From an uncultured Bacillota bacterium (GTDB taxonomy: Bacteria; Bacillota_I; Bacilli_A; RFN20; CAG-288), in assembly GCA_949284445.1 (NCBI GenBank), contig CASDVP010000003.1, forward strand, positions 1 through 64,000: 64,000 nucleotides of DNA, in the 5' to 3' direction. The notes below the pieces were generated by a model that was given only the letters and a program-made list of their open reading frames with translations, had not been told where the DNA came from and searched no databases. A program made the translations under genes and the position numbers. This document shows, one piece after another, positions 12,916 to 20,421 of this stretch (position 1 is the stretch's first letter; every line of letters starts with the position of its first letter).

Positions 12916-13955
12916 ATGAAAGAACTTAAGAAAGTAGATAATTATTCCGATGATATTTTTTAGTTGATTCAAAATATTTCAAAAATCATTGTCGAGTCTA
13001 AAAAGAAAGTAATAACTACTGTTAATACAACGCTTCTTGATGCTTATTGGAATATTGGTAAATTGATAGTCGAGCAGGAGCAAAACGGTAATAACAAGTC
13101 TCAATACGGGTCAAACACGCTAGGGACAATATCCAAAGAACTTTCAAAAAGTTATGGCAAAGGATTTTCCGTGTCTAATCTTCAAATGATGAGAAGATTT
13201 TATTTGGTTTATCGAAATCAACAGACAGTGTCTGTTAAATTGAGTTGGTCGCATTATATCGAAATTCTTTCAGTAGCTGATGACAAAGCTAGAAGCTTTT
13301 ATCAACATGAATGCGAGAATTCTAATTGGTCCGTTAGGGAGTTGCGAAGACAAATAGCATCATCATTTTACGAAAGACTTTTATTATCTAAAGGTGATGT
13401 GAACAAAGAGAAGTTAATTGAGTTATCGAAAAAAGGTATCACTTATTCTTCGCCTAATGATTTTGTGAAGGATCCGATGGTCCTTGAATTCTTGGGATTG
13501 CCAGAGGAAAAACCGCTGTTGGAAAGCGACTTGGAGCGCTCTTTGATAGAACATATAGAAAATTTTTTGCTTGAATTAGGCAGAGGATTCATGTTCGTTG
13601 GCTCTCAATACCGCATATCAATTGATGGCGTCAACTACTATGTGGACATGGTCTTCTATAACAAAATTTTGCATGCATATCTTTTAATCGATTTAAAATG
13701 GGTAAATTGCGACCTGAGAATTATGGACAAATGAATATGTATCTGAACTATTTTAAAAATGAGATAAATGATGATGGAGACAAAGATCCCGTCGGCATTA
13801 TTCTTTGCGCCGAGAAAAACAATATCGTTGCCCAATATTCTATGGAAGTATTAAAAACAAACATTTATGCCTCAAAATATACTTATGTGATTCCAAATAA
13901 GGAACAACTTGAGATGGAATTGCAAAAAGTATTAGAAAGCAAAAAATCTGATTAG
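12916..13955 (+). pseudogene. broken DUF1016/YhcG-family PD-(D/E)XK nuclease
   Basis: The family is a putative PD-(D/E)XK nuclease often found with restriction or mobile genes. ATG 12916 opens a frame that meets an amber codon at 12961 after 15 codons, then continues unbroken from 12964. The N-terminal DUF1016 domain shows LLDAYWNIGKLIVE, YGKGFSVSNLQMMRRFY and LSWSHYIEIL. The nuclease core YYVDMVFYNKIL and LLIDLK follows. At an A run near 13695 the frame is lost. The correct continuation (GKLRPENYGQMNMYLNYF) is in another frame from 13698 to 13955, consistent with one missing A. An intact copy would be about 345 residues. The homopolymer shift could be a sequencing error, but the separate stop argues for real decay. 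Confidence 0.85.
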
Positions 13956-16000: not shown

Positions 16001-16014
16001 TCATTCAAAATAAG

Positions 16015-16066
16015 AAAAGTTGTAACTGTTTCACTAAAAGAGAAGGCGAAGATAGTTACAACTTTT
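16015..16066. terminator. bidirectional terminator between pepF and the sigma-like gene
   Basis: AAAAGTTGTAACT (16015-16027) pairs perfectly with AGTTACAACTTTT (16054-16066) around a 26-base loop. A T run lies on each strand, serving the two convergent genes. Confidence 0.8.
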
Positions 16067-16073
16067 TTTGATG

Positions 16074-18437
16074 TTATTTTCTCTTTATAAGATAATCAGT
16101 ACTAAAATACTCGCTGAGAGTATTGCTGACTTGGAAGTCATCAGATAAGAGAGTCCTAGCTATTCCAGCTAGTAAATACGGGTTATATTTATAGTCTAAT
16201 TTAGGTAGACTATCAAAATTATGTATTGTAGATACATATAAACCATCATCTTTAACTTTATTTAATAAGAATTCTTTGATCTGTGCTAATTGCTCGTCTG
16301 TAATAGCGAAAACATCTTTTCTCACAAATTTAAATTTATCAACTTGAATATAATCTTCATAACACTTGCTGACCAGCTGCAAATAATTGATGATCTTCAC
16401 ACCTGTTTGTTCAGAATAGTGATTCAAATCTTTTTTATCAAAGCTTTCTTTGGAATAGATGTAGTCAAGCATATGATCGCCATGAGCGTTATCATTGAGA
16501 CAGATATACGGTCTTCTGAAATATAATTTATCACTGAAGAACTGCTCAGCCAGTGAAAATAGAACATAACCGTCTTTGACGATTTTAAATGTTTCTAACA
16601 GTGAAGGCTTTTCAGCTTTCAAACATCTGTACACTTTACTAGAAGTCAAAAGTTCGACGTTATAACGCTTGAATAAAGAGAGTAAATACTGATGATATTC
16701 ATCTATAGCCTGTTGAGGTATTTGTAACTTATCGATATATAAAAATTGATAGCTAGGCAAGAATAAAAGACCTTTTTTTCTTTCCATATAAGCGTATTGC
16801 ATAAACGTATAGGTCTTAACGCCTTTATAGGCCGATTGTAAATCACTCAAAGAGAAGACACCATCAAAATGTCTCATAAAGTTGACGACATCATCGATAG
16901 CAGTCACTTTTTCATCACCGACCTGGATGTAATTACGTCGGCTGTGGAAATCGCTCGGTAAATGCAAGTCGATCAAACCTTTCAAGTAGAAATAATTGTT
17001 GATCCCTAAAGCTTTAAGTCGATCTTCAAAATGTGTAAAAATGGAGATGTAATAAACGATTTGACCTTGAGATCTGATATATTCTAATATTTCGTTTAAC
17101 AGATCAGATGGAATAACCGCACATCTCTTTTTTAATTGATATATGCCTTTATCAATTGGAATGCAGCTATCATTTCTTTCAAAGAGTGCAGAGACATTTC
17201 TCGGAGTCCACATCGACTTCATACTTCCAAAATCTTCTTTCAGATGGTCCATCAATTGAATGAAATCTTGATTAACATTCAATTGATTGATGTGATATCC
17301 ATCTGGAAAATATCTTTCAACTAACACGTTTAAAATATCGATTGAAGTCAATCCTTTTTTTAGATAACTGGTTCCATTTTTTGTAGTATAAAAATTCTGT
17401 AATACAGCCTTTTCAAACATGTTCACCTTCCTTTTTTCCAGGTTCACTAGCGGAGAAAGACTATCAATTGTTCTAGCTACTAAAGTATCGATATCGACCA
17501 GAGTGGCATCATAGATAATACCGAATTGACTAGAGATCTTATACTCAGAATCTGGAGCATAGCAACCTAACAAAAGAATCGTTGCATAATCATCACAATT
17601 GATCAATTTATAAAAATTATCGATAAAAGCATAAGTGAAATTATCCAGAACGATTTCATTAAAACAGAAATCAAAAATAATTTTATCTAAAGATTCCTGC
17701 TGGAAAAATTTGCAAATTTTCTTAATAGCAAGTTTTTCGATCTGTCTGATTCTCTCTCTAGTAACATTGTACTTTGATCCTAATTCATCCAAAGTTACCT
17801 TCTGTGATTCATAGATATAACCACGTCCCTTTAAGGTATCCAGATAATTAGGTTTAAGTTTGATACGGGTTAAAAGATAACTGATATGTTTTTGATTAGC
17901 AAAAGACTTTAAAGCTTCAGGAATAAAATCTTTTTTAACAGGCGTCCCTGAATATTTAAAAAGATAAGGTAAAGCAATCTTTGCATCTTTTAAAACTAAA
18001 AGACGTTTAGCTTCTGCTGATAGGTGCAAGTACTGATTGAATGTAGTGATATTAGCATCTTTAGCTATCTTTAACATCATCTTATCCTGAATGAGGTTTT
18101 CGATTGGAAAATCATCATCGATCACTTCAGGTAATGAAGAAAAAAGACGGGGATAATGCGTGAAAAGATTCGCATAAAAAATGAAATATTCAAACATTGA
18201 TTCATGATATATCTTTTCATTTAAAGCTTGTATAACTAAGCAGCAATCACGAAAGTTAAATTTGAATTCAGTGATATATTTTTGTATTAATTTATACAGT
18301 TCATCAGCACTTAAATTTGAGAGATTCTCCGTATAATACCTGGAATTTAAATCCCTCACCAACTCTCTCCTTTTAGTAGAAATTTCATCTGTTCTCATCA
18401 AGACTTTTTCTAATGAAGGATTAAACCACTCAAACAT
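16074..18437 (-). CDS. large protein with sigma-70 region-4-like helix-turn-helix, function unknown
   Basis: A 787-residue, probably cytoplasmic protein. The only clear motif is TLDELGSKYNVTRERIRQIE near residues 212-235, which matches the -35-recognising helix-turn-helix of sigma-70 region 4. No core-binding region 2 is seen, so it is not an ordinary sigma factor. The N-terminal 200 residues look helical. The C-terminal half seems to hold several small winged-helix-like units (for example EILEYIRSQGQIVYYISIF and VVNFMRHFDGVFSLSDLQ), an impression from pattern only. No signal peptide or membrane helix is evident. AGGTGGTGAA precedes the ATG. It is transcribed alone. Likely a DNA-binding regulator or an RNA-polymerase-associated factor, but the role is open. 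Confidence 0.6.
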   Translation of the reverse strand: MFEWFNPSLEKVLMRTDEISTKRRELVRDLNSRYYTENLSNLSADELYKLIQKYITEFKFNFRDCCLVIQALNEKIYHESMFEYFIFYANLFTHYPRLFSSLPEVIDDDFPIENLIQDKMMLKIAKDANITTFNQYLHLSAEAKRLLVLKDAKIALPYLFKYSGTPVKKDFIPEALKSFANQKHISYLLTRIKLKPNYLDTLKGRGYIYESQKVTLDELGSKYNVTRERIRQIEKLAIKKICKFFQQESLDKIIFDFCFNEIVLDNFTYAFIDNFYKLINCDDYATILLLGCYAPDSEYKISSQFGIIYDATLVDIDTLVARTIDSLSPLVNLEKRKVNMFEKAVLQNFYTTKNGTSYLKKGLTSIDILNVLVERYFPDGYHINQLNVNQDFIQLMDHLKEDFGSMKSMWTPRNVSALFERNDSCIPIDKGIYQLKKRCAVIPSDLLNEILEYIRSQGQIVYYISIFTHFEDRLKALGINNYFYLKGLIDLHLPSDFHSRRNYIQVGDEKVTAIDDVVNFMRHFDGVFSLSDLQSAYKGVKTYTFMQYAYMERKKGLLFLPSYQFLYIDKLQIPQQAIDEYHQYLLSLFKRYNVELLTSSKVYRCLKAEKPSLLETFKIVKDGYVLFSLAEQFFSDKLYFRRPYICLNDNAHGDHMLDYIYSKESFDKKDLNHYSEQTGVKIINYLQLVSKCYEDYIQVDKFKFVRKDVFAITDEQLAQIKEFLLNKVKDDGLYVSTIHNFDSLPKLDYKYNPYLLAGIARTLLSDDFQVSNTLSEYFSTDYLIKRK

Positions 18438-18760
18438 TTCACCACCTCGTTTTTAAAATAATACTATCACTTTAGCAATAATATTTCAATCATGTCTATA
18501 AATCTAATTAGATAGCTTAACAATAATGTAAAAAGAAACTGCAAATTAAGCGCAATTAAGTATAATCCATTTGTCTTCTGCGCAATTAATCCGTTGGTTA
18601 AAGAAATTCAAAAGTGTAAAAGTTTCAATAATTAACGCTCACTTTTTCTTAAGCTTACAAAACAACTGATAAATCAATTCCTATTTTTATAATATTCTTC
18701 CCCTGATTTCTTGATCATCATCTAATAATCTATTCAAGAAACTCACTTTAATCTAAAAAT
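18438..18760. other. AT-rich intergenic region with a 10-base direct repeat
   Basis: No gene is supported in this 320-base gap between the divergent-looking start of the sigma-like gene and the end of the ABC operon. GCGCAATTAA occurs at 18550-18559 and again at 18580-18589, exactly 30 bases apart, a spacing close to three helical turns that could be an operator upstream of the sigma-like gene. Confidence 0.4.
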
Positions 18761-18780
18761 CCCACCCTGAACAGGGTGGG
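18761..18780 (-). terminator. terminator of the sugar ABC operon
   Basis: CCCACCCTGAACAGGGTGGG forms an eight-base GC-rich stem. On the minus strand a T-rich run follows it, 24 bases after the solute-binding protein stop. Confidence 0.85.
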
Positions 18781-18804
18781 AGATAAGACTTTTTTGATTA
18801 AATA

Positions 18805-20421
18805 TTAACTATTAGCAGCTTGTGAGAAAGCAGAAGCGACAGCTTGATCAACTAAAGTTTTGATCTGTTCATCAGTTTTAGCGCTGTGATCATTTAAGAT
18901 TGTATTGACCAAGGCGCCAACAGCATCTCTACAACCAGCTGAAGAACCAGTTTTATTATCAAATACAGGAGCAGAGAAATAACAACCTTCTGTTAAATAT
19001 TCCTGGTTCAATTTATATGATTGACCAAGATATGTATCTTTCTTAGCTTGTTGAGTTTCAGCAGTAGTAGAAGTTTCACTGACTTCATTATCAGCAGCTT
19101 TGATCAGATTTTGAACTGCAGGTGTGCTATTAGAGGATTGACGGATTGGGAAGTAACCAGTAGTAGCAGCTAAACCAGCGCTGTTATCAGTGTTGGTCAA
19201 GAATTTATAGAAATCAAATGTATATTTCTCAACTTCAGTTTTAGCATTTCTGAATAAAACTAAGGAAGGTCCTTGAGCGATGGCTTGATGAGTACCAGCA
19301 TCAGTAGAATTGAAAATCGGGAAGTCTTTCTTGCCAGCAGTAGCAGTAGGATGGACTGACGCTTTATAACCATCAGCAAATAAATACATACCAGATGTAG
19401 AAGAAGAGATGAGCATGAACACTGAGCCATAGTTGACCATGGAAGTTGAATAGGCGTGATATTCTGGACTAGTTTTACTCCAAGTCAATTGATTTTTTGT
19501 GCAAATCAAGCCCTCATTATTCCATTTCTTCAATTGGATAAGCATGTTTTTAACATCATCATTATTAAAAGTAGGAGCAGTTAATGAGGTGTAGTCGATA
19601 TTCATCATCTTACATAAGGAGATGAAAAGATTATCAGCAGAATCATAACAGATCGGAACTGCCTTAAAATTACCATCTTCATCATATCTGTTTTCTTCAG
19701 AAAAAGTATCAGGGAAGTCGACCATCATCTGTCTAGCTAAGTCGATCATCTCTGTCCAATCAGTAGGAACTTCATAAGCGGATTTGCTACTAGCAGCAAC
19801 AGGGGCGATATATTGTTCACCGCCGTTTAATGCAGGATCTTCACTAGCTGTATGACCAGCGGCACCTTCACCAACTTTTTCAAAGACACTGTCATTGATG
19901 AATAAACCTTCAGTCGAACGTGAATAAGGTAAGGTTAAAAAGTCTTTTTCATCACCATAAGAGGTTTTTTCAGAATTGAAATCGATATCGGATTTCAAGC
20001 TCTTTTCATCATCGATAATCTTGCCACTAGCATCAACGGTTTTACCGAATCCGACTTCAGCATCATCAAAATATTTAGAAGCATGTAAAACAGCATCGCC
20101 AAACGTGACAGCATCATCAGGATAAACAGAAGCGATGTTAGGGAGAACGTGGCTGCTTAATCCATTTCTGACTTGTTCAGCAATTGCATCATAATCGTCA
20201 TATGCTTGTTGAACAATTTTGACATTTGGATGTAGTGCTTCATAATCTTCAATAACACCTTCGACATACTCATAACGACTGAAATCACCAGTTGGATTTT
20301 TTTCTGTCGGTTGAGCATAATCGTTCCACCAAACAATTTCAATTTTGTCTGTTTTAGTACAGCTGTTTAAGACTAATACACCTGTAGCTAAGGCTAATAA
20401 CGAACAAAGAGTCTTTTTCAT
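18805..20421 (-). CDS. sugar ABC transporter solute-binding lipoprotein
   Basis: The extracellular sugar-capturing subunit of the importer encoded just upstream. The 538-residue product has a lipoprotein signal with lipobox LNSC and anchor Cys21. The mature start IEIVWWNDYAQP and the later VIEDYEALHPNVKIVQQAYDDYD are typical of family 1 (UgpB/MalE-like) binding proteins. FYKFLTNTDNSAGLAATTGYFPIRQS is a characteristic late segment of the family. It is longer than the usual 420-450 residues. GGGGGAGA lies just before the ATG. It is the last gene of the operon ATPase-permease-permease-binding protein. The transported sugar cannot be told from the sequence. Confidence 0.88.
   Translation of the reverse strand: MKKTLCSLLALATGVLVLNSCTKTDKIEIVWWNDYAQPTEKNPTGDFSRYEYVEGVIEDYEALHPNVKIVQQAYDDYDAIAEQVRNGLSSHVLPNIASVYPDDAVTFGDAVLHASKYFDDAEVGFGKTVDASGKIIDDEKSLKSDIDFNSEKTSYGDEKDFLTLPYSRSTEGLFINDSVFEKVGEGAAGHTASEDPALNGGEQYIAPVAASSKSAYEVPTDWTEMIDLARQMMVDFPDTFSEENRYDEDGNFKAVPICYDSADNLFISLCKMMNIDYTSLTAPTFNNDDVKNMLIQLKKWNNEGLICTKNQLTWSKTSPEYHAYSTSMVNYGSVFMLISSSTSGMYLFADGYKASVHPTATAGKKDFPIFNSTDAGTHQAIAQGPSLVLFRNAKTEVEKYTFDFYKFLTNTDNSAGLAATTGYFPIRQSSNSTPAVQNLIKAADNEVSETSTTAETQQAKKDTYLGQSYKLNQEYLTEGCYFSAPVFDNKTGSSAGCRDAVGALVNTILNDHSAKTDEQIKTLVDQAVASAFSQAANS

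Follow-up and report, generated by a model that had tools for sequence, protein, structure and literature searches.

Sigma-type parts have been reported in several bacterial defence systems. In the available parts of three reports, the mza system contains the sigma factor MzaA (PMC9523054), and a sigma-type helix-turn-helix (HTH) is placed in the N-terminal domain of BrxL (PMC12839542) and in a variant of DndH (PMC10853773). For the paraMORC2 restriction-modification operons, an ExxxH motif is defined in the accessible part of the account by Iyer et al. 2008 (PMC2292703). Here we analyse a stretch of 64,000 nucleotides (the window) from an uncultured Bacillota bacterium (contig CASDVP010000003.1, positions 1 to 64,000), in which a gene on the minus strand (16,074..18,437) encodes a protein of 787 amino acids with a helical N-terminal part, sigma-70 region 4 and a tandem array of winged-helix-like units. 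The family that joins region 4 to about eight such units is undescribed, although the HARE-HTH literature may hold an earlier description. What is new is an accessory component of a predicted type of defence operon, with an unusual architecture; the window copy is a stand-alone member. Our preferred explanation, to which we give a probability of about 0.5, is that the family protein would be a DNA- or promoter-binding subunit that in operons provides a scaffold for a MORC-type ATPase and, where it stands alone, serves as a DNA-bound regulator or silencer.

A sigma-70 region-4 motif without a visible region 2 had been proposed in the earlier note from the letters alone, and both parts of this proposal were borne out. 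The Pfam model Sigma70_r4 matched residues 212-241 with an expect value (E) of 4.2e-7 and 29.8 bits, above its curated cut-off of 24.1. The longer RpoD C-terminal model spans residues 177-251, showing that regions 4.1 and 4.2 are both present, and the sequence matches of the protein in the PDB are sigma region 4. No further Pfam model, those for regions 2 and 3 included, matched the window protein at E<=10. Among 25 aligned family members, Sigma70_r4 was found in 24, and a region 2 or 3 model in none at E<=0.01. The recognition helix region for the -35 element (residues 220-234, GSKYNVTRERIRQIE, positions 17,736..17,780, minus strand) is among the best-kept stretches of the alignment although its other members are 23-27% identical to the window protein, apart from one orthologue at 76%, with R227 and E228 kept in 22/25, R229 in 25/25, R231 in 23/25 and Q232 in 24/25. 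Since this helix is so well kept in an otherwise divergent family, region 4 is more than a chance match. Outside region 4, no model of Pfam, NCBIfam, PHROGs or PADLOC covers the window protein at the thresholds used; PHROGs gave three sub-threshold matches. An ordinary sigma factor is encoded elsewhere in the same genome (L002), so the window protein is an extra protein. As an alternative sigma factor it was rejected: region 4 is present, and the models for regions 2 and 3 are absent.

Three parts can be distinguished in the protein, all encoded on the minus strand. Pfam searches and the structure model show residues 1-176 (17,910..18,437) as an all-helical N-terminal part without a family match, with low confidence for the first ~25 residues. 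Residues 177-249 (17,691..17,909) form region 4, the most basic part (+9), as seen with the Pfam and RpoD models, structure matches and charge, and residues 250-787 (16,077..17,690) hold about eight winged-helix-like units according to the model, structure matches and a family-specific profile. The AlphaFold2 model, built with 25 sequences, has a mean predicted local distance difference test score (pLDDT) of 83.6 and a predicted template modelling score of 0.53. It places the region 4 helices at residues 182-246 and continues with eight helix-strand units of the winged-helix type (residues 250-310, 316-360, 365-435, 444-506, 513-567, 575-646, 655-706 and 714-786), whose borders and number were read by eye from the secondary structure of the model. 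No two units are clearly similar in sequence (the best pair, W6-W8, reaches a probability of 15%), and their number is therefore a reading of the model only.

Foldseek found no match to the model of the window protein at E<=1e-3, and the same holds for the viral structure library; a C-terminal profile found no match in the PDB at E<=10. The top Foldseek rows included UFL1/DDRGK1, SelB, Dcc1 and ESCRT-II chains, with cullins, APC/C and eIF3 subunits also present, and many of these are known winged-helix proteins. For 1ku7_A, the structure of sigmaA region 4 on -35 DNA, Foldseek gave a probability of 1.00 over 66 columns (3.6 A, 30% identity), although with an E of 0.49. VIA aligned 1ku7_A to residues 181-256 with Z 6.3 and SelB (1lva) with Z 7.6, and reached Z 8.2 with a chain of the Pol III pre-initiation complex over residues 513-787; Z values under 8 may reflect merely a common arrangement. 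The earlier idea of a factor reading -35-like sites is upheld for the fold, which is that of region 4 without region 2; a transcriptional role is putative. The match to the winged-helix domains of SelB (rank 6 in Foldseek) could also mean that the winged helices bind RNA and not DNA. This is very unlikely: its Z value lies in the range that may mean common arrangement only, sequence identity to SelB is ~10%, and region 4 argues for DNA. The charge of region 4 averages +4.1 in the family, and the later units average -2.2 to +1.4. Because these later units are near neutral, the array appears to be better suited to a scaffold than to eight heads that each bind DNA.

In known sigma factors, region 4 binds the beta-flap. 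The family protein might act there as a decoy sigma part and block or sense the takeover of RNA polymerase by phages, and the presence of both regions 4.1 and 4.2 would be in line with this, as would the fact that the mza defence system includes a sigma factor, as described in the available part of that report (PMC9523054). The conserved residues of the family are those that contact the -35 bases in sigma-70, and we consider a target on the polymerase improbable.

The defence context was found in the neighbourhoods of relatives. In 24 of 41 non-redundant loci the family gene adjoins the PADLOC genes PDC-M33A/B/C (20 full-length, three shortened and one cut by a contig end), a count that leans to this context since the C-terminal alignment behind the locus scan starts with an operon-linked row. 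Nine repeat loci (L093, L096, L108, L109, L112, L113, L114, L116 and L117) had been dropped before neighbourhoods, junctions and palindromes were counted, and the context tags cover only M33A/B/C, the small gene, BrxP, BrxC, DndB/C/D, Cas9 and Dam relatives. Representatives were identified by PADLOC (PDC-M33A E 5.5e-126, B 1.1e-46, C 3.8e-35) and the other loci by similarity. The usual operon order is a small gene (72-112 amino acids as called), the family gene, A, B and C, and a Dam-type methylase usually lies on one side or the other. Between the small gene and the family gene there is an overlap of 4 nucleotides in 19/19 loci, and the junction between the family gene and PDC-M33A measures -11 to +3 nucleotides in 21/21 loci. 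Behind PDC-M33C in one locus (L069:806-4272), a calcineurin-like phosphoesterase gene and a long coiled-coil ATPase-like gene replace the usual Dam gene; by eye the pair resembles an SbcD/SbcC-type pair.

The family and PDC-M33A also occur together more often than expected, with P values that ignore shared descent: in a phylum sample of 392 genomes both were found in five genomes where 0.53 would be expected (P 6e-5), and in 4/5 the two genes are neighbours; they were found together in an order sample of 279 genomes in five against 0.77 expected (P 4e-4). A C-terminal-only profile, used to avoid ordinary sigma factors, matched 11/392 genomes of the phylum sample, so that relatives are rare and patchy. 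In this less biased search four of the 11 genomes had a family gene adjoining PDC-M33, one adjoining Ssp and one Dnd-Pbe, one had a cytosine methylase a few genes off, and four had none of these markers. Other defence genes are found beside single members, namely PbeA, a PbeC/DndD-type protein, DndB and DndC in L092, SspB, SspC and a BrxP/SspD-type protein in L065 (a shortened form), and BrxP-BrxC-PglZ of type-4 BREX in L077; in L075 the family gene directly precedes a Cas9-like gene, tagged by eye from its first residues. The link to mobile or stress genes suggested in the earlier note is in part supported, by the mobile defence loci around relatives; the window copy itself is without tagged markers.

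The partner in these operons, PDC-M33A, models as a MORC/MutL/Hsp90-type GHKL ATPase of the paraMORC2 type. It had no meaningful Pfam match, and a profile search of the PDB gave one chance-like match. Its structure model (pLDDT 68) matched MutL (E 1.7e-6), TRAP1 and topoisomerase VI in Foldseek, with E ranging from 1.7e-6 to 1.3e-5, and MORC3 (Z 17.2), SMCHD1 (Z 16.9) and Hsp90 (Z 16.8) in VIA. GHKL-type motifs are conserved, and ENPQH, present in 18/18 sequences, fits the paraMORC2 ExxxH motif. In phages, PDC-M33A was found in one unannotated contig. One PDC-M33A gene (L090:10473-12428, genome G313) has a single in-frame TGA under table 11; this small genome may read TGA as Trp, as happens in lineages of this kind, or the gene may be broken.

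PDC-M33 is wider than the family and the content of the slot upstream of A varies, which is why we regard the family gene as an accessory or specificity module of PDC-M33. Among 12 genomes of the order sample with PDC-M33A, three hold the full gene (G029, G168 and G006), two the shortened form (G106 and G129) and one a tail at a contig end (G090), and four have none (G148, G149, G209 and G224). The last two, G024 and G164, encode a protein of 247-250 amino acids related to the N-terminal half of the shortened form (E 3e-26 and 2e-26). The shortened form combines the last winged-helix units with another N-terminal domain, and Pfam found no region 4 in the three tested. The 247-250-amino-acid proteins (L132:9670-10413 and L134:9647-10399) occupy the same place before the small gene and hold a domain common to the shortened members, with no Pfam match. 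In the phylum sample a full or shortened gene lies upstream of 4/20 PDC-M33A places within the 1.5 kb examined, and a fifth place gave a weak match. PDC-M33A on plasmids (eight records examined of 22 matched; hosts Lactococcus, Ligilactobacillus, Priestia, Planococcus, Deinococcus and others) is accompanied by B and C and lacks the family gene; several of these copies adjoin restriction-modification genes.

The main rival to a subunit of an effector complex is a purely transcriptional regulator, whose region 4 would compete for or replace sigma at -35 sites of its own operon or of unlinked genes. In its favour, the fold of region 4 reads promoters, there are solo copies, which are under purifying selection, and the operons carry a palindrome, AATATTT-n-AAATATT, upstream of the small gene that often overlaps TTGACA (operons L069, L076, L089 and L094-L118). 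This palindrome occurred in 4% or fewer of the shuffles per locus; general palindrome scores were above shuffles in a minority of loci only. The strict form is present in 18/19 operons with both the family gene and the small gene, and the loose form only in 3/3 operons with the shortened form. Operons without the family gene have it as well (strict 1/8, loose 4/8), and it is present in 0/8 M33 loci without a detected small gene, among them L062 with a full gene and L135, and in 0/17 solo or other loci, the window included. This distribution argues against the regulator, as does the protein itself, since ~800 amino acids and a second-gene position coupled to an ATPase gene would be unusual for a plain regulator. 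We hold a pure regulator to be less probable than the scaffolding subunit and the most probable of the rivals. Since the palindrome occurs without the family gene and is missing from solo loci, the small gene is the better candidate partner, and AATATTT-n-AAATATT is a candidate operator of paraMORC2/PDC-M33 operons, as judged from sequence. The small conserved protein of 72-100 amino acids (L095:8478-8777 and equivalents; NFKRIAENRVNKI...) precedes PDC-M33A also where the family gene is absent; it has no Pfam match, and its best match in a PDB profile search is weak (E 0.0033).

In the window the gene starts with ATG and its frame of 787 codons is intact. The source genome (G000) comprises 1.47 Mb and is 91% complete, and PDC-M33A was not found in it at E<=1e-10, which places the window copy outside a PDC-M33 operon. 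The neighbours are a solute-binding protein/ABC transporter operon upstream and an M3 peptidase gene downstream. The claim that the gene sits alone fits the flanks: an intrinsic-terminator-like hairpin of the solute-binding-protein gene lies upstream on the same strand (18,760..18,781, read from 18,781 to 18,760), and a terminator-like inverted repeat with 16-nucleotide arms lies between the gene and the convergent M3 peptidase gene (16,012..16,069). With these elements and a transporter and a peptidase as neighbours, the gene looks singly transcribed. A ribosome-binding-site-like GAGGTGG (18,442..18,448, minus strand) was read directly just 5' of the ATG. A pattern scan found a promoter-like TTGAAA-17-TAGTAT with TG before the second hexamer (18,461..18,489, minus strand), one of ten such matches in the scanned region against a shuffle mean of 14.4, which is not evidence of function. 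The repeat-bearing upstream region of the earlier note proved weak, as 18,400-18,830 contains no direct or inverted repeat of >=12 nucleotides and holds only the terminator hairpin and a 10-nucleotide direct pair, GCGCAATTAA (18,550-18,559 and 18,580-18,589, plus strand); in this test the pair does not exceed chance: allowing <=1 mismatch, the window has 5 matches where 5.4 are expected. Further off, a YhcG/DUF1016-type nuclease gene (12,964-13,955, plus strand) is split over two frames (12,964-13,734 and 13,698-13,955) with the domains DUF1016_N plus YhcG_C 2-82 and 81-156, and is frame-broken or mis-sequenced.

The window copy is a real, conserved gene under purifying selection. In the same genus, G004 encodes an orthologue that is 76% identical and lies at the same site. 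As in the window, its neighbours are the M3 peptidase and solute-binding-protein genes, apart from a single additional lipoprotein-like gene in between. Between the two copies, nonsynonymous divergence (dN, by NG86) is 0.152 and synonymous divergence (dS) 1.61, which approaches saturation. Their ratio is about 0.09, and for the flanking genes it is about 0.11 (solute-binding protein) and 0.04 (peptidase). The window copy could still be a decaying remnant of a lost defence operon, given the broken YhcG gene nearby and a tree that places it, weakly, near operon-linked members. The intact frame and the orthologue at the same site speak against this, and the dN/dS ratio largely refutes it, leaving decay highly improbable. 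The tree was made by a quick method and has long branches (L076, L077, L075, L091 and L092) and 11 open forks.

All other full-length relatives are 20-27% identical to the window protein. About 18/279 genomes of the order sample hold family members; a whole-protein profile matched 256/279, mostly ordinary sigma factors with region 4 only, which were dropped by eye. Scanning the GTDB species genomes yielded 26 loci, whose record titles mark them as metagenome-assembled or uncultured. No match was found in plasmids searched with the window protein or in phages searched with the L062 relative, and three pattern matches in viral contigs were not confirmed. No homologue of known unrelated function, which the earlier note had named as a refutation, came up in the homologue search. 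The literature search found no paper containing 'PDC-M33' or 'DUF6339', nor one with 'sigma-70 region 4' together with 'defense island', and the sole paper matching sigma factor, winged helix, defense system and GHKL concerns, in its available part, CapK/CapS regulators (PMC13373217). Two copies are found in G006, a genome of the same genus as the window: one is solo, and the other is divergent and linked to PDC-M33 (L064 and L076). The family genes of L072 (G161) and L075 (G269) are each split into two frames.

According to the preferred explanation, region 4 would dock the family protein on -35-like, promoter-type DNA, and the near-neutral winged-helix array would mainly be a scaffold that holds DNA and partner proteins. 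Operon members would bring the MORC-type ATPase and the methylase module to chosen DNA. Solo members, the window copy among them, would do without the ATPase; bound to DNA, they would regulate or silence promoters that are unlinked and probably foreign. Should the targeting idea hold, promoter recognition would be tied to bacterial MORC-type ATPases, which would give a testable answer to how the ATPase chooses its DNA. A bolder form, in which region 4 locates the -35 elements of unmodified DNA entering the cell and loads the ATPase there, with solo copies as xenogeneic silencers, is doubtful in our estimate; if true, it would amount to promoter-directed silencing or restriction in bacteria, parallel to eukaryotic MORC silencing.

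Several observations weigh against the scaffolding subunit, in addition to the leaning of the locus count. The winged-helix units are not basic, and some relatives lack a recognisable region 4 (degenerate in the solo members L070/L071, no Pfam match in L077 and L091). Solo or unmarked loci, without tagged defence markers, make up 13/41, the window included; one of them, L091, has a cytosine methylase nearby. Ten genomes of the order search have solo copies (G000, G004, G005, G006, G045, G061, G099, G159, G161 and G170) and PDC-M33A is found only in G006, so nine of ten do not require the ATPase. Elsewhere, PDC-M33 loci mostly lack the family gene, and PDC-M33 is itself a candidate defence system only. 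Autoregulation by the family protein through the upstream palindrome was rejected, as the palindrome follows the operon of the small gene and not the family gene.

Compared with housekeeping sigma-70/SigA, the window protein has the fold and recognition helix of region 4 in common but lacks regions 2 and 3, and where region 4 is the chain end in sigma-70/SigA, it occupies residues 177-249 of 787 here and the winged-helix-like units continue the chain. The mza system, which has a GHKL ATPase as partner, offers another case of region 4 within a defence-system protein. MzaA (NF041931 / PDLC02203) is the only PADLOC model whose region 4 matches the family protein. The protein was rejected as MzaA, as only region 4 matches (37.5 bits against a cut-off of 800, residues 165-241 and, for the PADLOC model, 168-246), and the MzaA model also covers regions common to ordinary sigma factors that the window protein lacks. 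BrxA, SspB and DndG are likewise defence proteins of tandem winged helices, but the available parts of the reports give them about three units, without region 4 (PMC12839542, PMC10853773), whereas the window family has about eight and region 4. The PADLOC SspB and BrxA models did not match the window protein, and BrxA/SspB/DndG structures are absent from the 50 rows listed by Foldseek and VIA, which does not speak against kinship. L065 has an SspB gene beside the family member, which is therefore not a simple replacement of SspB. BrxL and the DndH variant, as far as their reports are available, also reuse a sigma-type HTH, but fuse it to AAA+/Lon-type or HerA/FtsK engines, whereas the window family joins it to winged helices and has the ATPase as a separate gene. 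The closest likeness in gene content is to the PDC-M33/paraMORC2 restriction-modification operons: the available part of the 2008 account (PMC2292703) does not describe the family protein or use the word sigma, and the window copy lies outside such an operon, but the relatives' neighbours are PDC-M33A/B/C, and A has a GHKL fold and ExxxH. An overlooked component of the predicted paraMORC/PDC-M33 defence operons is thereby named, in which the -35-reading fold of sigma is reused without the remaining sigma factor, in large winged-helix proteins beside several DNA-modifying defences.

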